Shown one piece after another: positions 54,200 to 64,000 of a stretch of 64,000 bases of DNA (the stretch's first letter is position 1; each line of letters begins with the position of its first letter). Location: NCBI RefSeq assembly GCF_003150835.1, contig NZ_CP029479.1, positions 372,001 through 436,000 of the forward strand, written 5' to 3'. A program made the translations under genes and the position numbers. Origin of the DNA: Phenylobacterium parvum. GTDB lineage: Bacteria; Pseudomonadota; Alphaproteobacteria; Caulobacterales; Caulobacteraceae. The notes beneath the pieces are model-generated. The model worked only from the letters and a program-made list of their open reading frames with translations. It ran no database searches and was not told the DNA's origin.

Positions 54200-55120
54200 C
54201 TGGACGTCTATCTCCCCATCGCCGAAGTCTCAGTCAACGCTCCCCTCCTGGTCGCCGCGGGCGCCCTCGTGGGTTTCATCTCGGGCATGTTCGGCATCGG
54301 GGGCGGCTTCCTGATGACCCCCCTTCTGGTCTTCCTCGGCGTGCCCGCCCCTGTCGCGGTCGCCAGCATGGCGGGACATGTGGCGGCTTCCTCGACCTCC
54401 AGCGTCCTGGCCTATTCCGCCAGCCGGGGAGTCGACTTCCGGATGGGCGCCGTCCTGGCCGCCGGCGGGGCGGTCGGGTCCCTGGCCGGGGTCGAGGTCT
54501 TCCGCTGGCTCCGCCTGGCCGGACAGGCCGACCTCGCCGTCGCCCTGGCCTATCTCGTTTTCCTGGGCGTGATCGGGACCCTGATGCTGTGGGAGTCCGT
54601 GGGCGCCCTGGCCCGCCGGCGACGGGGCGATGCCGACCCTGCGCCGGCCCAGAAGCGTCCGGCCCTGCTCTACGGACTGCCCCTGAAGATGCGGTTCCCG
54701 CGCTCGCGCCTCTACATCAGCGTGCTGCCGCCCCTCGCCCTTGGCGCCTTCGTGGGCCTGCTGTCGGCTGTGATGGGCGTCGGCGGCGGCTTCATCCTCG
54801 TCCCGGCCATGATCTACCTGCTGCGCATGCCTGCAGGCGTGGTGGTGGGGACCAGCCTGTTCCAGATCATCCTGACCACCTCCCTGACCACCCTGCTCCA
54901 GGCGGGGCGCAACCAGACCGTGGACATCGTGCTGACCTGCCTCCTCGTCCTCGGCGGCGTCATCGGCGCCCAGCTGGGCGCCCGGGCCTCGGCGCGCTTC
55001 CGGCCTGAGGCCCTCCGGGTCCTGCTGGCCCTGATCATCCTGGCCATAGGCCTCTCCATGGGCCTGCGCCTGGTGCTGACCCCGGCCGATCCCTTTGTCC
55101 TCCTTTCGGCGGAGGGCTGA
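54200..55120 (+). CDS. TauE/SafE-family anion exporter, probable CTG start
   Basis: A ~306-residue membrane protein of the sulfite exporter TauE/SafE family with about eight helices. The family repeats FISGMFGIGGGFLMTPLL (~25) and LLSAVMGVGGGFILVPAM (~175) are both present. The only canonical in-frame start (GTG 54269) would cut into the first helix and remove the conserved lead-in; CTG 54200 restores LDVYLPIAEVSVN plus a full first helix and sits nine bases after GGAGG (54186-54190). I therefore annotate the CTG start. It moves sulfite, taurine-derived or related anions. TIGR02186 and DUF3429 genes follow. Confidence 0.82.
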   Translation: MDVYLPIAEVSVNAPLLVAAGALVGFISGMFGIGGGFLMTPLLVFLGVPAPVAVASMAGHVAASSTSSVLAYSASRGVDFRMGAVLAAGGAVGSLAGVEVFRWLRLAGQADLAVALAYLVFLGVIGTLMLWESVGALARRRRGDADPAPAQKRPALLYGLPLKMRFPRSRLYISVLPPLALGAFVGLLSAVMGVGGGFILVPAMIYLLRMPAGVVVGTSLFQIILTTSLTTLLQAGRNQTVDIVLTCLLVLGGVIGAQLGARASARFRPEALRVLLALIILAIGLSMGLRLVLTPADPFVLLSAEG

Positions 55121-55122
55121 CC

Positions 55123-55809
55123 ATGGCCGACCTGCCGCCCGTCCAGCTCGCCGCCGACCTGACCAACGCGAACATCGAGGTCAACGCCGGCTATTCCGGC
55201 GCCAGCATCTCGGTCTTCGGCGCGGTCTTCGGGGCCTCAGGTACGCCTTCCGACGTCGTGGTCGTGGTCCGCGGGCCCGATCAACCCCTGTCCATCGCCC
55301 GGCGGGAACGGCGCGCCGGTCTCTGGCTCAATGGCGGCCCCCAGAAGGTCGAGGGCGCGCCGGGCTTCCATCTCACCGCCTCAAACCGGGACCTGGAGCG
55401 CATCGCAGGCCCCGGCGTCCTGCGGGCGGCGGGCGCCGGCCTCGGCAGCCTGCCGGTCTCCACGCCGGGCGGTGGGGATTTCACCCGCGCCGTCGTCCGC
55501 CTGAAGCAGGGAGAAGGCCTCTATGCCGAGGACCCTGCCGGGGTCGACTTCGTCGACCGGGGCCTCTTCCGCGCCCGCATCGAACTCCCCGTCTCGGCGC
55601 CGGTCGGACGCTACCGGGTCGACGTCATCCTGTTCCAGGGCGGCCAGGCCGTGACCCGCCGCAGCCGGGAGCTGACCATCGAGAAGGTTGGTATCGAGCG
55701 GCTCATCTCCGGTTTTGCCCACCAGCGTCCCTGGGCTTATGGTATGGTCTGCGTACTGATTGCGCTCGCCGCCGGCTGGGCGGCCTCCGCGGCCTTCAGG
55801 AGGGTGTGA
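55123..55809 (+). CDS. TIGR02186-family membrane-anchored protein
   Basis: A 228-residue protein matching TIGR02186: a beta-rich region (LTNANIEVNAGYSGASISVFG, VVVVVRGPDQ, GLWLNG) and one C-terminal membrane helix (residues ~205-225). Members usually start with a signal peptide and stand right after a TauE-type gene, as here (2 bases). This copy begins MADLPPVQLAADL with no hydrophobic leader, and the upstream stop leaves little room for one. Either export is unusual or the start is misplaced inside the preceding gene. Role unknown, but the linkage suggests it works with the transporter. Confidence 0.78.
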   Translation: MADLPPVQLAADLTNANIEVNAGYSGASISVFGAVFGASGTPSDVVVVVRGPDQPLSIARRERRAGLWLNGGPQKVEGAPGFHLTASNRDLERIAGPGVLRAAGAGLGSLPVSTPGGGDFTRAVVRLKQGEGLYAEDPAGVDFVDRGLFRARIELPVSAPVGRYRVDVILFQGGQAVTRRSRELTIEKVGIERLISGFAHQRPWAYGMVCVLIALAAGWAASAAFRRV

Positions 55810-56246
55810 TGCCCGTGGCCCCTGCACCGGTCTTGATCCTGGCCCTCTTCGGCCTGGCTGGCTTTCCGCTGGCGGCGGGTACCTACGCCTTCGGGCCGGC
55901 TGACCTGCGATTCATGGCCATCCACATTCTCCTGACCTGGTCCGCCGTGGTCCTGGGGTTCCTGGGGGGCATCCGCTGGAGCCAGGAGTCCACGCGGGAT
56001 CCGCCACGCTTCCTCAGGCTCGCCGGCGCCATGCTGCCGCCCCTGGCGGGCGGCGGGCTGCTGCTGGCGCGGGACTACCTGGCCGCCGACTGGATCATCG
56101 GCGGCTTCATCGCCGCCTACCTCGCCGCCTGGCTGTTCGACCGGGCGCCGGAGACCCTGTCGCGCTATCCCGCCCTGATGACCCTCCTGACCTTCTCCGC
56201 CTGCGTCTCCCTGGCCCTGGCCCTCGAGAAGGCCCTGCGCATCTAG
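55809..56246 (+). CDS. DUF3429-family integral membrane protein
   Basis: A 145-residue protein with about four or five membrane helices and the DUF3429 pattern (LGFLGGIRWSQE, residues ~47-58). ATG 55809 overlaps the TIGR02186 stop (TGATG). It completes a co-transcribed trio with the TauE-like exporter. The stop at 56246 overlaps the 3' end of the convergent pdeM gene by four bases. No function is known to me. Confidence 0.8.
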   Translation: MPVAPAPVLILALFGLAGFPLAAGTYAFGPADLRFMAIHILLTWSAVVLGFLGGIRWSQESTRDPPRFLRLAGAMLPPLAGGGLLLARDYLAADWIIGGFIAAYLAAWLFDRAPETLSRYPALMTLLTFSACVSLALALEKALRI

Positions 56247-56968
56247 CTCCGGTCCGGCCGCAGCGACCGGGCGCCGGCCGCGTGGACCCGGCTATCCCCC
56301 AGGGCCGCCACGATGGGCGGCCGAGCAAACAGGCCCGCAAAGGCGGGGTCCAGGACGTTCAGGCCTCCGGTGAAGGCCCCGTAGGCGGGCAGGACGGCCC
56401 GCTCGCCATCCGTCACCAAGCAACGGCGCCGGACCGCGCCCCTGAGCGTGGCGATGCGGGCGCAGGGGTGCAGGTGCCCCGCAATCTCGCCGGGCGCCGT
56501 TCCCGGGTGCGGCTCATGACGCAGGACCAGGTCGCCAAGGCGGACCTCGTCCGCCGCCTCGCCGGGAAGGTCTGCGTCGGGCTCCGGATCGTGATTGCCC
56601 GTGATCCAGACCAGGCTGGCGGACTGCGCCAGGGCCTCAAGCGCATCGCGGTCGGGGTCGGACATCCGCCGCGACGCCTCCCGGTCGTGGAAGGCGTCGC
56701 CCAGGAACAGGATCTGGCGCGGCGACTCCGCCAGCACGTCGAGGGCCAGGCGGCGCAGGGTCTCGCGGGTGTCGAGGGGCGGCAGGAGCTGGCCCCGACG
56801 GGCGAAGGCCGAGCCCTTCTCCAGGTGCAGGTCGGCGACGACCAGGACGGCGCGCGCAGTCAGCAACAGGGCGCCGGAGGGCAGGAGGCGCGTCGCCTCG
56901 CCCGCCAGGGTCAGGTCCATGGCCCCGCCTTCGGCCGCCCGCAGGCCCAGGATCTGTGCCGGGCTCAT
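56243..56968 (-). CDS. pdeM: Ligase-associated DNA damage response endonuclease PdeM
   Basis: A 241-residue metallophosphoesterase. All metal motifs are present: VVADLHLEKGSAF (~43-55), LGDAFHD (~89-95), WITGNHDP (~120-127) and GHLHP (~163-167). In the ligase-associated repair set it acts with a DNA ligase, an exonuclease and a DEXH helicase. Here only the helicase partner is present; the start ATG 56968 overlaps its stop (ATGA). An internal ATG at 56920 would also keep the catalytic domain. Confidence 0.88.
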   Translation of the reverse strand: MSPAQILGLRAAEGGAMDLTLAGEATRLLPSGALLLTARAVLVVADLHLEKGSAFARRGQLLPPLDTRETLRRLALDVLAESPRQILFLGDAFHDREASRRMSDPDRDALEALAQSASLVWITGNHDPEPDADLPGEAADEVRLGDLVLRHEPHPGTAPGEIAGHLHPCARIATLRGAVRRRCLVTDGERAVLPAYGAFTGGLNVLDPAFAGLFARPPIVAALGDSRVHAAGARSLRPDRS

Positions 56969-59421
56969 GGCAGGGCCTCGGCGATGAGCTCGCTTTCGGC
57001 CTCGGCCAGGATGGCGTCGCCCGCCTGGCCCGGCGAGCGCTCCTTGCCGATCTCCATCAGCATGGGCACGGCGAAGGGCGACAGGCGGTCCAGGGCCACA
57101 TGGCGAATCCGTCCGGCCACCCGCGCCAGGAGGTCCCCCAGCCGGGCGGCGTCGATCATGCCGGCGGCGGCTTCCTCCCGGGCGCAGCGCAGGAGCAGGT
57201 GGTCCGGCTGGTGGCGTCGCAGGACGTCGTAGATCAGGTCGGTGGAGAAGGTGACCTGCCGTCCGGTCTTCCGGGGCTCGCCCGGGAACCGCCGCTCGAT
57301 CAGGCCGGCGATGATGGCGCAGCCCTTGAAGGCCCGCTTCATCATGAAGCTCTCGGCCAGCCAGTCCTCAAGGTCGTCGCCCAGCATGTCCTGGGCGAAC
57401 AGGTTGTCCATGTCGAGGCCGTCCAGGGGCTTCAGCGACCAGACGGCAAGGGCGTAGTCATTGCAGACAAAGCCCAGGGGCTGTGCCCCCGCCCGCTCCA
57501 GGCGACGGGTCAGCAGCATGGCCAGGGTGGTGTGGGCCAGTCGCCCCTCGAAGGGATAGGCCACCAGGAAGTGCCGGCGGCCCCGGGGAAAGGTCTCCAC
57601 CAGCATCTCGTCCTCGGCGACGATCCGCGAGCGGCGGCGCTGGAGGTCGAGCCATTCGCGCACGTCCGGCGGCAGCCGGGCCCAGGCCGTCTCGTCGGAC
57701 ATCATCCGGCGGACCCGGGCGGCGAGGTAGCTGGACAGGGCGAACTTCGAGCCGCCCCATGAGGGCATGTTCGGATCCTCCGACCGCGCCGGCCGGACCA
57801 GGACGTCCATGCCGGTGATGGCCGCCAGGCTCCATACCTGCCCGGCGAAGACGAAGGTGTCGCCCGGGTCGAGCATCTCGAAATAGCCTTCCTCGATCTC
57901 CCCGATCTTGCGCCCGCCCACCAGCCGGGCGCCCTGGACCACACGCACCGAAAGGACGTCCGGCGACAGGATGGCCCCCAGGTTCAGCCGGTGCCGCCGG
58001 GCGGTCTCGGCGTTGCGCACCCGCCAGAGGCCGTCGGGTCCCTGCACCATCCGACGGAACCGGTCGTAGGACGACAGGGCGTAGCCGCCGGTCGCAGTCA
58101 GGTCGAGGGTGCGCGCGAAGTCCTCCGGCGACAGGTCGCGGTAGGGGCCGGCCCGCCGGACCTCGTCGAACAGGTCCGCCTCCGGGACCGGCTCGGCGCA
58201 GGCGCAACCCAACAGGTGCTGGGCCAGGACGTCGAGGGCGCCGGTGCGGGCCGGATCGCCGTCCAGCCGGTTCTCGGCGATGGCCTCCCGGGCGGCCTGG
58301 CACTCCAGGGTCTCGAACCGGTTGGCGGGCACGAAGAGGGCGCGGCTGGGCTCATCCAGGCGGTGGTTGGCCCGGCCGATCCTCTGCACCATCCGGCTGG
58401 CGCCCTTGGGCGAGGCCAGCTGGATCACCAGGTCCACGTCGCCCCAGTCTATGCCAAGGTCCAGGGTCGAGGTGCAGACCACCGCCTTCAGCTCGCCCCG
58501 GGCCATGGCGGCCTCGACCTTGCGCCTCTGCTCGGCGGCCAGGCTGCCGTGGTGCAGGGCGATGGGCAGGTTGTCCTCGTTCAGCTTCCAGAGCTCCTGG
58601 AAGGCGAATTCGGCCTGGAAACGGGTGTTGACGAAGACCAGGGCCGTCCGGGCCTCGCGGATAGCCTGGTAGACCTCGGCCATCGCGTGCTGGGCGGTGT
58701 GGCCCGCCCAGGGCGTCCGGCCCCCGGACAGGAGCAGATCCACCTGCGGGGCCGCGCCCGCTGGCCCGCGCACCAGGTCCACGGGGCGGTCGCCGTGCCC
58801 CAGCCAGCGCCGGATGACGTCCGGGTCGTCCACCGTGGCCGACAGGCCCACCCGCCGCGCCCGGGGCGCCAGGGCCGACAGCCGGGCCAGGCCCAGGGCC
58901 AGGAGGTCTCCCCGCTTGGAGGCGTGCAGGGCGTGGATCTCGTCGACGATGACGCAGGCCAGGTCCTCGAAATAGAGGCGCGAGCCTTCCCAGGCGCAGA
59001 ACAGGGCCAGCTGCTCGGGCGTGGTGAGCAGGATGTCGGGGGGCCGCACCTTCTGCCTCTGGCGCCGGGCGATCCCGGTGTCGCCGGTCCGGCTCTCGGC
59101 GATGACGTCCAGCCCCATCTCGCGGATCGGCCGGGCGAGGTTGCGCTCGACGTCCACAGCCAGGGCCTTGAGCGGCGAGATGTAGAGGGTGTGGACCCCG
59201 CGCCGCGCCTCCCGCGGCCGCCCGGCCAGCTCCACCAGGGTGGGAAGGAAGCCGGCCAGGGTCTTTCCGCCCCCTGTCGGGGCGATCAGCAGGGCGTCAC
59301 GGCCCGCCTGCGCCTGGGCGACCATCTCCAGCTGGTGGGCGCGCGGCGACCAGCCCTGGGCCGCGAACCAGTCGGCGAAACGGGAGGGCAGGCGAGGGGA
59401 ATCCGCGGCGGCGTCGGCCAT
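56965..59421 (-). CDS. Ligase-associated DNA damage response DEXH-box helicase (Lhr-like)
   Basis: An 818-residue superfamily 2 helicase of Lhr type. Walker A APTGGGKTLAGF (residues ~46-57), Ia SPLKALAVD, motif II VDEIHAL, motif III LSATVDD, motif IV/V in STLDLGIDWGDVD and motif VI QRIGRANHRLD are present; the C-terminal half is the winged-helix and DUF4135-like extension of this group. It is the motor of the ligase-associated repair set. ATG 59421 lies at the edge of the low-GC island; the usual upstream exonuclease and ligase genes are missing. Confidence 0.9.
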   Translation of the reverse strand: MADAAADSPRLPSRFADWFAAQGWSPRAHQLEMVAQAQAGRDALLIAPTGGGKTLAGFLPTLVELAGRPREARRGVHTLYISPLKALAVDVERNLARPIREMGLDVIAESRTGDTGIARRQRQKVRPPDILLTTPEQLALFCAWEGSRLYFEDLACVIVDEIHALHASKRGDLLALGLARLSALAPRARRVGLSATVDDPDVIRRWLGHGDRPVDLVRGPAGAAPQVDLLLSGGRTPWAGHTAQHAMAEVYQAIREARTALVFVNTRFQAEFAFQELWKLNEDNLPIALHHGSLAAEQRRKVEAAMARGELKAVVCTSTLDLGIDWGDVDLVIQLASPKGASRMVQRIGRANHRLDEPSRALFVPANRFETLECQAAREAIAENRLDGDPARTGALDVLAQHLLGCACAEPVPEADLFDEVRRAGPYRDLSPEDFARTLDLTATGGYALSSYDRFRRMVQGPDGLWRVRNAETARRHRLNLGAILSPDVLSVRVVQGARLVGGRKIGEIEEGYFEMLDPGDTFVFAGQVWSLAAITGMDVLVRPARSEDPNMPSWGGSKFALSSYLAARVRRMMSDETAWARLPPDVREWLDLQRRRSRIVAEDEMLVETFPRGRRHFLVAYPFEGRLAHTTLAMLLTRRLERAGAQPLGFVCNDYALAVWSLKPLDGLDMDNLFAQDMLGDDLEDWLAESFMMKRAFKGCAIIAGLIERRFPGEPRKTGRQVTFSTDLIYDVLRRHQPDHLLLRCAREEAAAGMIDAARLGDLLARVAGRIRHVALDRLSPFAVPMLMEIGKERSPGQAGDAILAEAESELIAEALP

Positions 59422-59515
59422 GCCGCGGTTCTAGCATGTTCCCCTTCCGTTTCGAGGGGCAAATACTGTCCTAGACAGGACACCCTAACCGGCGGACTAG
59501 GACAAAAGTGGAATT

Positions 59516-59540
59516 TGACTCACTCGCATAAGTCGAGTCA
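59516..59540 (+). promoter_or_regulatory. Dyad with two GANTC sites before winged-helix gene
   Basis: TGACTC (59516-59521) and GAGTCA (59535-59540) are inverted repeats that each contain a GANTC methylation site; an inner ACTCG/CGAGT pair (59522-59526, 59534-59538) adds symmetry. It precedes the start at 59569 by about 30 bases. Candidate operator or methylation-sensitive promoter. Confidence 0.4.
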
Positions 59541-59568
59541 GGATGGTCTCATAGGCTAGGAGGAAGCA

Positions 59569-59835
59569 ATGGCCGACGAGAACGATATCGCGCGTGGTAT
59601 TGAGCAGATAGCGATAGCCAATGGCGGCCTCTGCACATATAAGCGGGCGTACAAAGAGATACCGAATTACGTGAATCTCAACGCGACGAACACTGCAGCA
59701 TCAGCGACGCGCCCAGGTGAACAGATGTGGCATCAGCTCGTTCGCAACATCAAATCCCACGATACGACGCCCGGAAACTTCATCTACGCAGGGCGGCTTG
59801 TACACATCCCTAAAGTAGGCTTCCGTATTCCATGA
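59569..59835 (+). CDS. Small predicted winged-helix protein
   Basis: An 88-residue protein, not assigned to a family. An N-terminal helical hairpin (DIARGIEQIAIANGGLCTY) is followed by WHQLVRNIKSHD and a strand-turn-strand FIYAGRLVHIPKVGFRIP, which resembles the winged-helix ends of restriction-enzyme or Mrr-type proteins. It could be a DNA-binding accessory, regulator or partner of the methyltransferase encoded convergently four bases away. AGGAGG (59558-59563) is a strong ribosome-binding site. Its composition is unlike the genome around it. Confidence 0.55.
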   Translation: MADENDIARGIEQIAIANGGLCTYKRAYKEIPNYVNLNATNTAASATRPGEQMWHQLVRNIKSHDTTPGNFIYAGRLVHIPKVGFRIP

Positions 59836-59839
59836 CACA

Positions 59840-60445
59840 CTAACTGAACCGGTGCTTGTAGCCGGGTTTGAACCACTTCAGTTCCGTCCCGCTGGGTGCA
59901 TCCTTGTCCCAGACGAACCAAGCGTATGCAGTGGTCCCGCTTCCTGCCTGGACAGCGCCTACCGGATAGAACGTGATCCGTTCCGAGAACACCCACACGC
60001 GACTCGGCGGCGTCTCCGAGAAGATGGTATTGGCGCGATTACTGCCTTCAAGGAAGGCTAACCGCAGCAAGAGCGCGAACTTGCGACGCGCCAGTCGAAC
60101 ACCGCTGCGCACGAATGCCTCGGCGGCATTGTAAGGCGGATTGGTTACGATGTTATCGGCGCACCAATCGGCTTTGATGAAATCTACGCCAGCCTCGCCA
60201 TAGCCACGGTCATACAGATCGGAGCTATGAACCGAGCGCGCTGTCGTCTCCAGAACCTTCGACATTGCCCCGTTGCCGCAGGCGCTCTCCCAGATATCGC
60301 CGTCAAAACGCTCATTGTCGATCAAGGCGTGCGTAGCCCACGCTGGCGTTGGGAAAAAGTCAGGTCCGTCCAGATCGGCAAACCGCTTCATGGTCGGCTT
60401 GAATCCGCCGTTCAGGTTGTAAGTGGCGTCCGTCACGGCGAGCAT
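59840..60445 (-). CDS. Phage-type class I SAM-dependent DNA methyltransferase
   Basis: A ~201-residue methyltransferase, smaller than typical restriction-system enzymes. SAM-binding motif I is WESACGNGAMSKVL (~50-63), the acidic motif II region SSDLYDRGYG follows, and the catalytic NPPY (IVTNPPYNAAEAF, ~100-112) is the amino-methyltransferase type (N6-adenine or N4-cytosine). The N-terminal FFPTPAWATHAL and the LEGSNRANTIF segments match orphan phage methyltransferases as I recall them. No separate target-recognition domain is evident. ATG 60445 is used; TTG 60451 and GTG 60436 (better ribosome-binding distance) are alternatives. No nuclease is next to it, so it may be solitary. Confidence 0.75.
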   Translation of the reverse strand: MLAVTDATYNLNGGFKPTMKRFADLDGPDFFPTPAWATHALIDNERFDGDIWESACGNGAMSKVLETTARSVHSSDLYDRGYGEAGVDFIKADWCADNIVTNPPYNAAEAFVRSGVRLARRKFALLLRLAFLEGSNRANTIFSETPPSRVWVFSERITFYPVGAVQAGSGTTAYAWFVWDKDAPSGTELKWFKPGYKHRFS

Positions 60446-60471
60446 CCTCAATCAAGTGGAAAAGGATAACA

Positions 60472-60497
60472 GAATCATAAACTTATAAAATGGTTAA
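60472..60497 (-). promoter_or_regulatory. Putative methyltransferase promoter with CtrA half-site and GANTC
   Basis: On the minus strand TTAACCAT (60490-60497) matches the reported CtrA half-site, and GATTC (60472-60476) is a GANTC methylation site. They lie 27-52 bases upstream of the methyltransferase start in an A/T-rich stretch. Pattern match only. Confidence 0.35.
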
Positions 60498-60569
60498 TAG
60501 GGAGCTATCATTGACCCACCCTCTGGCGAACCTAGCGCGTTAGCCCGGAAAGTAGGGCAATGCCGCCCC

Positions 60570-61502
60570 TCAGGCGTCCGCCAGGTTCTCGATCCGGGTC
60601 GCCCAGTAGTCGGCGTCATAGTCCGGGTCGCCGGTCAGGTAGCGCCAGAACCGGACCCGGTTCAGCAGCTCCAGCCGGCCCGTATCGTTCTCGTACCAGG
60701 GCTCCTGGGTCATGAGGATCTGCTCGACCGAGGGCGGCAGGGGGCCCTTGAGGTAGAAGATCGGGCGCTGGGCGTCCTGGGGCTTCAGGGTCGAGACGTC
60801 GAACTGGCGGACCTGGGAGCGCGAGGGATTGATGCGCACCTTGAACATGGTCCGGGTGCGGTCCGAGACGTTCACTCCGCCGCCATGCCAGATGCCCGAA
60901 TGCAGGAAGAGCAGGGTCCCCCCCTCGCAGACCATGTGCTGCTGGCCGCGGATGTTCTGGTAGCGGGCGATGGCCGCTTCGCTGACCTTGCGCAGGTGGC
61001 TGCCGGGCAGGAAGCGCGTGCCGCCCATCTCCCGGGTCACGGCGTGCGGGTAGTACATGATCTGGATGTCGAAGGCCCGCCGGGGGTCGATGGTGGAGTC
61101 CTGGTGGTAGTGCTGGGACACGTTCTCGCCGCCGCTGGCCTCGTGGTAGGCGGGCGGGAAGGTCACGTGCAGGAAGTGGTGGTCGAAGACCGGGTCCTCG
61201 CCCACCAGGCTTCGGATGGCGCCGGCCACCCGGGGCAGGTCGAGGAGGCGCTTCAGGGCCGAGCCGTCGGGATAGGCCTGCGCCAGGGGCACGCCCGCCG
61301 GGGTCTGCGGCACGCCGGCCCGCGCCAGCATCTCGCCGTAGGTGCGCCTCATCTTCTGGCCGGGGCGGGGCGGATCGATGTCGCCCATCTCCTCCAGGAA
61401 CTGGCGGTTGATCTCTTCCGGCACGACGCCGTCGAAGCGAAGGAACCCGCGGGCGGCGAAGCTGGCCATGGCCTCGGCGGGCAGCAGGGGCAGGTTGTTC
61501 AT
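60570..61502 (-). CDS. Phytanoyl-CoA dioxygenase-family Fe(II)/2-oxoglutarate enzyme
   Basis: A 310-residue PhyH-type dioxygenase. The iron ligands are His133-x-Asp135 (HYHQD) and a distal His206 (HSGIWHGGG), and Arg217 or Arg223 (SDRTRTMFKVR) can bind 2-oxoglutarate. It hydroxylates a still unknown small molecule or acyl-CoA. ATG 61502 overlaps the upstream stop (ATGA), so it is coupled to the small gene before it. The long open frame upstream of that start is a shadow of the neighbour. Confidence 0.87.
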   Translation of the reverse strand: MNNLPLLPAEAMASFAARGFLRFDGVVPEEINRQFLEEMGDIDPPRPGQKMRRTYGEMLARAGVPQTPAGVPLAQAYPDGSALKRLLDLPRVAGAIRSLVGEDPVFDHHFLHVTFPPAYHEASGGENVSQHYHQDSTIDPRRAFDIQIMYYPHAVTREMGGTRFLPGSHLRKVSEAAIARYQNIRGQQHMVCEGGTLLFLHSGIWHGGGVNVSDRTRTMFKVRINPSRSQVRQFDVSTLKPQDAQRPIFYLKGPLPPSVEQILMTQEPWYENDTGRLELLNRVRFWRYLTGDPDYDADYWATRIENLADA

Positions 61503-61774
61503 GCGCCGGTCTCCACGATCTGTTCGAACAGGAACTCGTACTTGAGGTAGGCGAGGTCGAACTCCTCGCCCTTGGCGTGGGGCAGCAGGGGCGAGACCTG
61601 GATCAGCCGCCAGCCATCGCGCAGGGCGTGCAGGCCGGTCGGATAGGGCGGGGCGTCCTCGTCGCCGGCCATGCGGCGGGTCTCTCCCGTCCCGTCCCAC
61701 AGGGACCAGCCGACCACGACCGAATCCAGGGCCGAATTGGCCAGGTAAAGCGCCAGCACCTTCTGTCGCAGCAT
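61499..61774 (-). CDS. Small hypothetical protein coupled to the dioxygenase gene
   Basis: A 91-residue soluble protein of unknown family: VVVGWSLWDGTGETR, a GLHALRDGWRLIQVSPLLP core with a likely strand pair, then a helix ending YEFLFEQIVETG. No cysteines, membrane helix or catalytic motif stand out. It overlaps the dioxygenase start by four bases and may be a partner or small regulator of that enzyme. ATG 61774 has GGGAGGACGC upstream. Confidence 0.6.
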   Translation of the reverse strand: MLRQKVLALYLANSALDSVVVGWSLWDGTGETRRMAGDEDAPPYPTGLHALRDGWRLIQVSPLLPHAKGEEFDLAYLKYEFLFEQIVETGA

Positions 61775-61828
61775 GCGTCCTCCCGCGTGGCGGCCAGCAT
61801 GGTCAGGCCCGCGGCGCGAGTCCAGCCT

Positions 61829-64000
61829 TCAGCCCTCGCCGAGGAAGTCGCGGGTGGCCTCCAGGGCCTCCACCAGGGTGACGCGCTGCAGGACCACGCC
61901 CTCCGGCAGGGCGCCGAACAATCGGGTGGGGGTGGCGGAGTCCAGCATGACGAAGACCCCGCGATCGTCGGCCCGGCGGATCAGGCGGCCGAAGGCCTGG
62001 GCGATCCGGCCCCGGGCGATGGCGTCGTCCCAGCCGCTCCCGAAGCGGGCCCGGCGCGCCTTGTGCAGCAGGTCCGGCCGCGGCCAGGGCGCGCGGTCGA
62101 AGACCAGCAGGCGCAGGCTGCGGCCGGGCACGTCCACCCCGTCGCGCACCGCGTCCGTGCCGAGGAGGCAGGAATCGAGCTCGGCCCTGAAGATGTCCAC
62201 CAGGGCGCCGACCTCCAGGGGGTCGACGTGCTGGGCGTAGAGGGACAGGCCCCGGTCACCCAGGGCGGCGGCGATCTGCTCATGGACGGCGCGGAGCCGG
62301 CGGATCGCGGTGAACAGGCCCAGCCCGCCGCCGCCCGCCGCCAGGAACAGCTCCCGCAGGGCGGCCCCGACCTGGCGGGCGTCGTTCTTGTTCACGTCCG
62401 TGACCACGAAGGCCCGGGCGCAGGCGGCGTAGTCGAAGGGTGAGGCGAGGCGCAGGTGGGCCGGCGGCGAGGCCAGCCGGCGGCCGCCCGATCTCAGCTC
62501 GGCCAGGTCGAAGGGATCCTCTGCGGCGCTGTCCGTCAGGGTGGCGGAGGTCACGAGCACCCCGTGCGCCGGCTCCAGCACGGTGCGGACCAGGGGCTCG
62601 GTGGGATCCACCCAGTGACGGCGGAAGGCGGCGTCGGCCAGCCGGCCGTTGATCACCACCCCCTCGAACCAGTCGACGAAGTCCGGATCCTCGCCCGCCA
62701 CCTCGGCGTCCAGGGTGGACAGCATGCCGCGCCAGGCGGGCAGGGTCATTCGCGCCCGGCGGTCCAGGCCCCGCAGCACGCCCTCGATCCGGCCCCGTTC
62801 GGCGCCGGTAAGGGTCTCGGCGCCCTGGTCCAGCAGGTCCTCCAGCGTCCGCGTCAGGGCCAGCAGGGGGGCCTCGATGTCCGCCAGGGCCGAGGCGACC
62901 GCCCGTGCGGCGGCGATGGCCTCCGGAAGGGCCGGGCGAGCGGCGCAGGCGGGCGCCAGGTCGGTGGGCTCGGCGCGGGCCCGAAGCTGGACCGCCATGG
63001 CCGCCAGGAAGGCCTCGACGGGTCCCTGCGGCGCCTCGGGGTCTCCCGAGGACAGCCGGCCGCTCCAGCCTTCGGACGGCAGGCGGCCTGCGGCGTGGAC
63101 CACGTCGTTCAGCGCCTGCCGGGCGGGACCGTCGGCGCCCACCAGGTCGGCCAGCCGCGCTTCCAGCCCGCGGCCCCGGCGGCCGCGCCGCTCGGAGCCC
63201 CGGATCCAGCGCCTCAGCTCGACCGTCTCCTGGCCCGACAGGGCCGTGGAGAAGGCCGCGTCGGCGGCGTCGAACAGGTGATGGCCCTCGTCGAACACCA
63301 CCCGGCGAAGGCGGGTGGTCTCCGGATCGTCGGGCGCGCCGCGACCCGCCCGCGCGCCGTCGAAGGCCGCCTGGGACATGACCAGGGCGTGGTTGGCGAT
63401 GACGATGTCAGCCCGGCGTGAGGCGCGGATGGCCTTCTCGACGAAACAGGTCCGGTAGTGCGCACAGCCGGCGTGGATGCACTCTCCCCGCCGGTCGACC
63501 AGGTTGCCCGCCGCCGCCTGCCCGGCGGGCGGGACGGCGAACAGGCCCGGCAGCCAGGCGGGGAAGTCGCCTCCGGTCATGTCCCCGTCCCGGCTGGTGC
63601 GGATCCAGCGCGCGGTGAGCCCCAGGCCGATCAGGTCCGCCGCGCCCAGCTGGGCGGTGTTCACCAGGTCCTGGAAGTTCAGGAGGCAGAGATAGTTCTC
63701 GCGGCCCTTGCGCACGACGGCCCGGCGCGCCCGCTCGGCCGGGTCGGGAAAGAGGACGGCGCTCTCGCGTTCGATCTGCCGCTGCAGGGCCCGGGTGTAG
63801 GTGGAGATCCACACCGAGGGGCCGTTCGCCTCGGCCCAGAGGGAGGCGGGGGCGAGGTAGCCCAGGGTCTTGCCGATCCCGGTTCCCGCCTCGGCGAGCA
63901 GCATGTTGGGTTCGTTCTCGCGGTCGCGCGGCCGAAAGACGAAGGCGGCCTCGCGGGCGTACTCGGCCTGGGCCGTACGGGCCTCGTCGAGGCCGGCTCG
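61829..64000 (-). CDS. DinG/YoaA-type ATP-dependent DNA helicase, N-terminal end off-window
   Basis: About 723 residues are visible; the frame continues past base 64000, so the true start is outside. Walker A is AEAGTGIGKTLGYL, the DEAH-type box is DEGHHLFDAAD, and the iron-sulfur cysteines lie in NYLCLLNFQDL and CIHAGCAHYRTCF. The C-terminal RecA domain contains ARFGSGWDDAIARGRIAQAF and ends with GRLIRRADDRGVF. This is an XPD/Rad3-like superfamily 2 helicase that unwinds damaged or RNA-containing DNA structures. The internal ATG at 63904 is inside the helicase core and is not the start. Confidence 0.92.
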   Translation of the reverse strand, partial: RAGLDEARTAQAEYAREAAFVFRPRDRENEPNMLLAEAGTGIGKTLGYLAPASLWAEANGPSVWISTYTRALQRQIERESAVLFPDPAERARRAVVRKGRENYLCLLNFQDLVNTAQLGAADLIGLGLTARWIRTSRDGDMTGGDFPAWLPGLFAVPPAGQAAAGNLVDRRGECIHAGCAHYRTCFVEKAIRASRRADIVIANHALVMSQAAFDGARAGRGAPDDPETTRLRRVVFDEGHHLFDAADAAFSTALSGQETVELRRWIRGSERRGRRGRGLEARLADLVGADGPARQALNDVVHAAGRLPSEGWSGRLSSGDPEAPQGPVEAFLAAMAVQLRARAEPTDLAPACAARPALPEAIAAARAVASALADIEAPLLALTRTLEDLLDQGAETLTGAERGRIEGVLRGLDRRARMTLPAWRGMLSTLDAEVAGEDPDFVDWFEGVVINGRLADAAFRRHWVDPTEPLVRTVLEPAHGVLVTSATLTDSAAEDPFDLAELRSGGRRLASPPAHLRLASPFDYAACARAFVVTDVNKNDARQVGAALRELFLAAGGGGLGLFTAIRRLRAVHEQIAAALGDRGLSLYAQHVDPLEVGALVDIFRAELDSCLLGTDAVRDGVDVPGRSLRLLVFDRAPWPRPDLLHKARRARFGSGWDDAIARGRIAQAFGRLIRRADDRGVFVMLDSATPTRLFGALPEGVVLQRVTLVEALEATRDFLGEG

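Follow-up and report, generated by a model that had tools for sequence, protein, structure and literature searches.

A mobile two-gene cassette of Phenylobacterium parvum pairs a small phage-type DNA methyltransferase with a stand-alone winged-helix protein and may imitate the host CcrM system

The stretch of the Phenylobacterium parvum genome analysed here (64,000 nucleotides, positions 372,001 to 436,000 of contig NZ_CP029479.1; hereafter, the window) contains a mobile insert with two genes (Table 1). In a congeneric relative (G079), whose flanks are 89.5% and 94.0% identical to those of the window, the bases corresponding to 59459 and 60570 are joined with 2 bp between them, and this empty site sets the edges of the insert at 59460 and 60569. 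An earlier note, made from the letters of the window, had placed an island at 59440-60560; the island is indeed present, with its edges shifted to the positions given by the empty site. The same note had remarked on the unusual composition and the convergent arrangement of the genes, and both observations hold: the GC content is 55.2% within the island compared with 72.7% in the flanks (55001-59459 and 60570-64000), and the stop ends of the two open reading frames lie tail to tail, separated by 4 bp. Terminal inverted repeats were sought at the island ends, where the repeats are weak and no claim is made for them. No restriction endonuclease adjoins the methyltransferase in the window, its neighbours being the 88-aa winged-helix protein, the helicase and the PhyH gene.

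Table 1. Positions of the island, its genes, its GANTC sites and the flanking genes in the window
Feature	Position	Strand	Length or basis
Left flank: Lhr-type helicase, chromosomal	56965..59421	-	Pfam DEAD_assoc, WH_Lhr
Inserted two-gene island	59460..60569	.	1110 bp; empty site in relative G079
GANTC upstream of the winged-helix gene (TTTGACTCAC)	59517..59521	.	sequence motif
Second GANTC upstream of the winged-helix gene	59535..59539	.	sequence motif
Stand-alone winged-helix protein, 88 aa, Mrr_N-type, with RN..SH recognition helix	59569..59835	+	AF2 pLDDT 95; family alignment
Small DNA methyltransferase, probably m6A	59840..60451	-	phrog_799 1e-58; ACGNG and NPPY motifs; M.TaqI among best fold matches
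GANTC (TGATTCT on the - strand) directly before the extended -10-like TGTTATCCT of the methyltransferase gene	60472..60476	.	predicted promoter
Right flank: phytanoyl-CoA dioxygenase family gene, chromosomal	60570..61496	-	Pfam PhyH 1.2e-16

The junction between the helicase and PhyH genes (window 59459-60570; loci L210-L217) is an insertion hot spot within the genus. Relatives carry varied cargo there (an AIPR gene; a D12 methyltransferase with a 431-aa protein; other genes), and some have next to nothing. In L215 an insert with the AIPR gene lies beside the two-gene island and is bounded by a repeat, about 30 bp long, of the 3' end of PhyH, as though integration had rebuilt the end of that gene.

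The methyltransferase (METHYLTRANSFERASE) comprises 203 aa if translated from TTG at 60451, or 198 aa from GTG at 60436; the latter is the likelier start, since homologous relatives start near SDATYNL. Its match to phrog_799 (Table 1) is strong, while the match to Pfam Dam is weak (E 0.013, below the cut-off). The relatives aligned (81 sequences) are 64-95% identical to the window copy, and C58, G59, G61 and NPP are invariant in all 81, so that motifs I and IV are intact; the fourth residue of the latter is tyrosine in 65 sequences (NPPY) and phenylalanine in 16 (NPPF). The structural model has a pLDDT of 79.8, with residues 1-28 below 50, and resembles M.TaqI and other SAM methyltransferases in a fold search. 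The enzyme is 36-37% identical to phiLM21_p027, the alignment at 36% spanning residues 21-199. Excerpts of a published study describe GANTC-specific methylation by phiLM21_p027, like that by CcrM, and state that the two enzymes share no sequence similarity (PMC5537653). The phage-type character proposed earlier for the methyltransferase is upheld, and its specificity is very probably GANTC, the site of the host CcrM, with m6A as the probable product.

The pair of genes recurs as a conserved tail-to-tail module on chromosomes, plasmids and viral contigs. The 104 loci with a close methyltransferase comprise 80 genome contigs (the best 80 of 93), 21 viral contigs (those of the best 80 of 261 at 64% identity or more, plus L126 at 49%), two plasmids and G172, and include near duplicates, such as L108 and L109. 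A hidden Markov model (HMM) of the winged-helix partner detected it tail to tail with the methyltransferase in 92 of them: 73/80 genome contigs, 16/21 viral contigs and 3/3 others. The gap between the stop codons, approximate since it is taken from BLAST match ends, runs from about -20 to +67 with a median of about -4 nt. The earlier suggestion that the two genes form one unit is therefore sustained, and a failure to co-occur elsewhere, named in advance as evidence against it, did not occur. Three of the 12 partnerless loci (L102, L107 and L122) lie at a contig edge, and in nine (L049, L078, L086, L092, L094, L119, L124, L126 and L182) the room available is 501 nt or more; the methyltransferase of L182 looks frameshifted.

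The partner does not accompany the more distant methyltransferases. It was found in none of 59 viral loci with 41-50% identity, 56 of which have 400 nt or more downstream, and beside none of 16 distant loci of the family (L012-L027, 14 with room). Among 199 genomes of the family the small protein occurs in three, including that of the window, and the same three hold an adjacent close methyltransferase. In 385 genomes of the class, searched with scoring of part of the candidates so that misses are possible, a close methyltransferase (E below 1e-100) occurs in six, again including the window genome, with an adjacent partner in 6/6; the 22 genomes with a distant methyltransferase only gave no partner match, and three stray matches were found (G340, G303 and G454, the last being an Mrr protein). 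The genome loci are annotated as Alphaproteobacteria or unspecified Proteobacteria in 78 of 80 cases, and the other two, a Phycisphaerae metagenome-assembled genome (L051) and a Frankia (L060), may reflect mis-binning. No third conserved gene is general among the top 28 neighbour clusters listed. As judged by eye, the recurrent ones among these are transposase-like, terminase-like or lineage-specific, and the largest consists of shadow ORFs of the methyltransferase region.

Three loci are of separate interest. A 20-kb Acetobacteraceae plasmid (L002, CP039461.1) carries the module twice along with duplicated mobilization genes, and in the 5.8-kb Paracoccus plasmid pHAE2 (L003) a DndB-family gene directly adjoins the module. 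The first part of a gene closely matching that of the 88-aa protein (86% identity over residues 1-35) lies at the edge of an IMG/VR contig (L005), and terminase- and portal-like genes lie nearby, as judged by eye.

In four viral contigs (L229, L241, L242 and L243) the partner is likewise tail to tail with a methyltransferase, here one of another clade. The L241 enzyme is 57% identical to phiLM21_p027 and shares 78-81% identity with those of the remaining contigs, so that this pairing provides a second tie of the partner to GANTC-type enzymes. Partners are rare in the second clade, being present in three of the best 80 of 337 viral relatives, a search in which the query alignment contained paired sequences and L243 fell outside the best 80. 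No partner match was found within 5.6 kb around phiLM21_p027 itself.

The gene of the 88-aa protein has AGGAGG ahead of its ATG. The protein is a winged helix throughout, modelled together with 77 relatives at a pLDDT of 95.2, with helices at residues 4-17, 24-34 and 53-63 and strands at 78-80 and 84-86. Winged helices head the fold ranking of the model (VIA-align, Z 5-7), with the H1 globular domain at 7.0 and DpnI, tied with others, at 5.9. DpnI does not stand out, many winged helices lying within 2 Z units. Mrr is absent from the best 50 VIA-align matches listed, and Foldseek gave no match below E 0.1. By sequence, the window copy alone has no Pfam match up to E 1, and hence none to PF07750 (GcrA); its PHROG match is weak (E 0.17) and a PDB sequence search was empty, while a PDB profile search reached no better than E 0.06, the matches being to MHC chains and other unrelated proteins. 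At the level of the family, an Mrr_N match with an E of 0.5 or lower was obtained for 48 of 81 members, the best being 4.4e-11. This match and the confident model bear out the restriction-enzyme-like winged helix recognised in that note. The nuclease domain Mrr_cat is absent from the 88-aa protein, and no nuclease family was found for the 81 members within the 25 of 36 Pfam families listed.

Selection of the first partner set relied on a pattern that demanded RN..[SAC]H together with Q or S; that R48, Q56, R59, N60 and H64 do not vary in any of the 81 rows of its alignment is therefore partly by construction. Among the 92 partners found with the HMM, which was trained on that set, N60 and H64 are present in 92, Q56 and R48 in 91 (one gap each) and R59 in 88, with glycine in the remaining four (L032, L067, L113 and L127). 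The segment Q56-H64 lies in or just past the third predicted helix. The retention of these recognition residues while identity to the window copy falls as low as 13% fits a fixed DNA target, as an argument rather than a test. The partners of L032 and L113 have an extra N-terminal domain, and in one locus of 92 (L087) the partner frame continues from an XRE-type helix-turn-helix (HTH_3, 4.9e-9). Partner and methyltransferase distances are correlated (Mantel 0.335, a value reached by 0 of 999 permutations), which may stem from host phylogeny alone.

The same winged helix occurs in larger proteins. It forms the N-terminus of 250-262-aa HNH proteins in phages, including one of Monoglobales phage CHVD 5762 (HNH 3.4e-5, McrA-type PDB match 2.8e-4) that is encoded one gene from a D12 methyltransferase. 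The corresponding protein of L236 adjoins a D12 methyltransferase and that of L234 an AlwI-type enzyme. In L231 a 267-aa winged-helix protein is tail to tail with a D12 methyltransferase, and its C-terminus, judged by eye, looks like a PD-(D/E)XK nuclease (Pfam XisH 0.018). A partner-like domain also lies at the N-terminus of the Mrr protein of G454 (Mrr_cat 2.7e-32, Mrr_N 3.9e-28). Together, the Mrr_N matches and the HNH fusions identify the module protein, by homology, as the part of a restriction enzyme that reads DNA, with the nuclease missing.

As an observation in its own right, the proteins of L231, L234, L236 and L223 are apparent phage restriction enzymes with the module-type winged helix at the N-terminus and, L231 excepted, HNH at the C-terminus. 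The same winged helix is also the C-terminus of BRO-N proteins of DinD-like type, encoded on Zymomonas plasmids and on viral contigs (L004, L238 and L239).

The region upstream of the methyltransferase is rich in GANTC. In the 150 bp upstream of the gene in 105 regions (the 104 loci and the window, with and without partner), there are 248 sites against 57.5 expected (maximum 75 in 200 shuffles); at least one occurs in 92 regions and at least two in 77. These counts retain L094, whose upstream region is partly inside its methyltransferase gene and whose zero is uninformative. The stretches upstream of the remaining ORFs of these loci have 0.34 sites each (n=1104), and those of distant methyltransferases have 0.25 in viral loci (n=57) and 0 in the family (n=16). 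After dereplication (n=98) the rate is 2.28 per 150 bp, compared with 0.52 in controls below 60% GC (n=369) and 0.54 in shuffles. The excess over shuffle is 4.2-fold, and the next of 16 gapped palindromes reaches 1.6-fold. Regions upstream of the partner gene are more mildly enriched, with 1.0 site per 150 bp and at least one in 53 of 88. In the second clade, 24 upstream regions contain 14 sites in general; as for the four pairs with the partner, there is one in L241, one in L243 provided that a later ATG is used, and none in L229 and L242.

The sites are placed in a regular manner. The consensus at 55 proximal sites, TTG.CTAA.c...TGATTCTGtTAt..TTT, looks like an extended -10 element with GATTC in the spacer. 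Of 98 regions, 51 have a GANTC against a -10-like pattern, which was composed after the data had been viewed (controls 3.8%, shuffles 5.4%), and 37 have a GANTC pair with a spacing of 8-11 nt (controls 1.6%, shuffles 0.6%); such a pair often lies farther upstream than the site at the -10-like box. By eye, several loci of Rhodobacterales type show the operator form AGATTCACA, and others have the pair plus TGATTCTG; the idea that the partner subfamily dictates the operator type was rejected, partners of the FSQ type being found with both forms. In the window there is one GANTC before the methyltransferase, with no distal pair, and two before the partner gene. Upstream GANTC persists in six of the nine loci that lack a partner despite room, which indicates that it tracks the methyltransferase clade and not strictly the partner. 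According to excerpts of a study on Brevundimonas subvibrioides, YGAKTCK is the consensus of GcrA-activated promoters (PMC7987155). The proximal TGATTCT fits it, so that transcription of the methyltransferase should depend on GANTC methylation. The YGAKTCK form occurs 0.89 times per methyltransferase upstream region and 0.18 times in controls, and GANTCAC is likewise enriched (0.65 versus 0.08).

In Alphaproteobacteria, methylation by CcrM at GANTC helps time the cell cycle and transcription. The genome of the window encodes GcrA elsewhere and has a RAMA match, used as a proxy for CcrM only, in a frame of 360 aa, about the size of CcrM. Among the eight module-bearing genomes, GcrA is present in seven and the RAMA match in six, from which it follows that the module usually adds to the host marking and does not replace it. 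In the two without a RAMA match (G294 and G466, the latter 86% complete) the module might supply GANTC methylation. The excerpts of the B. subvibrioides study include the suggestion that further methylation-dependent regulators may exist (PMC7987155).

The evidence points to GANTC methylation as mimicry of CcrM, from a promoter bearing the same site. The best explanation of the whole, to which we assign a probability of roughly one half, is that the island acts as a mobile cassette of two genes in imitation of the host CcrM epigenetic system. The methyltransferase would write m6A at GANTC, as CcrM does, and its transcription would be methylation-sensitive and read at least by the host GcrA; to judge from the promoter motif, the chances for and against GcrA-dependent transcription are about equal. 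The partner, a reading domain without nuclease, would bind GANTC, methylated or not. This is the weakest step of the scheme, GANTC being proposed as the target since it is the sole DNA element found common to the loci, and we rate such binding at slightly less than an even chance. The partner would also set the expression of the methyltransferase, probably as a repressor at distal GANTC sites, a role that we propose more tentatively still. Such a unit of writer and reader, portable and self-tuning, would increase GANTC methylation, or shift its timing, on behalf of the element.

In its fullest form, which we consider somewhat unlikely, this would be a portable epigenetic circuit in which the freed reader domain senses GANTC methylation at a CcrM-mimic promoter and sets expression accordingly, as a GcrA-like switch on mobile elements. 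If so, such elements could retune the cell-cycle methylation of the host through a switch of their own. A cassette that wrote the GANTC mark from a GANTC-bearing promoter would let mobile DNA disturb the host cycle, or shelter within it. The partner would be a candidate GANTC reader independent of GcrA, and is in any case a reading domain of restriction-enzyme type kept alone next to a methyltransferase. CcrM-mimic phage methyltransferases are known already; no description of the conserved winged-helix partner and the GANTC promoter was found in the open-licence portion of the PMC literature.

Unlikely, but the strongest of the alternatives, is a CcrM mimic whose promoter is read by the host GcrA only, the winged helix serving otherwise, for instance by shielding the DNA of the element or by competing with GcrA or CcrM at host sites. 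The partnerless loci that keep their GANTC sites, the fit of the proximal site to the GcrA consensus, and the pairs of the second clade, which have the partner yet few or no upstream sites, all agree with it. The tight pairing of the genes and the XRE fusion, seen in a single locus, suggest local control instead.

A role in defence or anti-restriction, as the earlier note had proposed for the island, appears quite improbable. The GANTC methylation would then shield the element from HinfI-like restriction, or the partner would guide a host nuclease to unmethylated GANTC. The resemblance to the N-domain of Mrr, the HNH proteins that begin with the same winged helix near D12-class methyltransferases or an AlwI-type enzyme, and the AIPR gene and D12 methyltransferase among the cargo at the same insertion site speak in its favour. 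No direct sign of it was found, however: all 88 residues belong to the winged helix, no nuclease is among the 25 of 36 Pfam families listed for the 81 members, and PADLOC families match at most two of the 81 members, the best (E 0.0024) being a type IV restriction model. The RAMA-type match in most carriers further suggests that their own DNA is probably marked at GANTC.

That the partner is a trans-acting target-recognition subunit is very unlikely. The size of the enzyme (about 200 aa), in which a recognition domain of its own is not evident, and the tight pairing would accord with such a subunit, but nine close loci lack the partner despite room, none was found in the 5.6 kb around phiLM21_p027, and, according to published excerpts, DNA was protected in Escherichia coli that expressed other phage GANTC enzymes from a pET plasmid (PMC5537653). 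A decaying restriction-modification remnant with no present function, to which the nuclease-free reader domain and the fast divergence of the partner (mean identity 34% versus 72% for the methyltransferase) might be attributed, is scarcely credible given the conserved promoter, a partner dN/dS below 0.2 in six of seven scored pairs (0.50 in the seventh, several dS saturated), and a methyltransferase with dN/dS of 0.016-0.101 (seven scored of nine pairs, several dS above 1 and saturated) that is open over at least 171 of 196 profile positions in 101 of 104 loci, L102 and L107 being cut by contig ends and L182 broken. The degradation of the methyltransferase in relatives that the earlier note had raised as a counter-indication did not, therefore, materialise.

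The proposed CcrM-like cassette can be compared with several known systems. Controller (C) proteins are small DNA-binding regulators in restriction-modification systems, and here too a small predicted DNA-binding protein adjoins a methyltransferase. The module differs in having no restriction enzyme and in its winged helix, which is not of the XRE type except for the L087 fusion; promoter binding in the manner of C proteins is a conjecture from the GANTC enrichment. Mrr and the HNH proteins with an Mrr_N-type winged helix have a related reader domain and, in the L231 example, the same tail-to-tail arrangement with a D12 methyltransferase, but they carry a nuclease domain that the module protein lacks. 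The phage CcrM-mimic methyltransferases, namely phiLM21_p027 and the 179-aa enzymes of Paracoccus aminophilus, are like the module enzyme small NPPY/F/W proteins of alphaproteobacterial mobile elements; the identity of 36-37% was measured to phiLM21_p027, and the Paracoccus enzymes are grouped with them by their description in excerpts of PMC5537653. No winged-helix partner was found in the 5.6 kb around phiLM21_p027 and the excerpts mention none, whereas the module has a conserved one together with a GANTC-rich promoter. With the CcrM/GcrA circuit the module would share the GANTC mark, predicted from homology, and it has a promoter site that fits YGAKTCK, as given in the excerpts of PMC7987155. 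It differs from that circuit in that the candidate for its reader, a winged helix, does not match GcrA, its methyltransferase is another enzyme, and the whole is portable.
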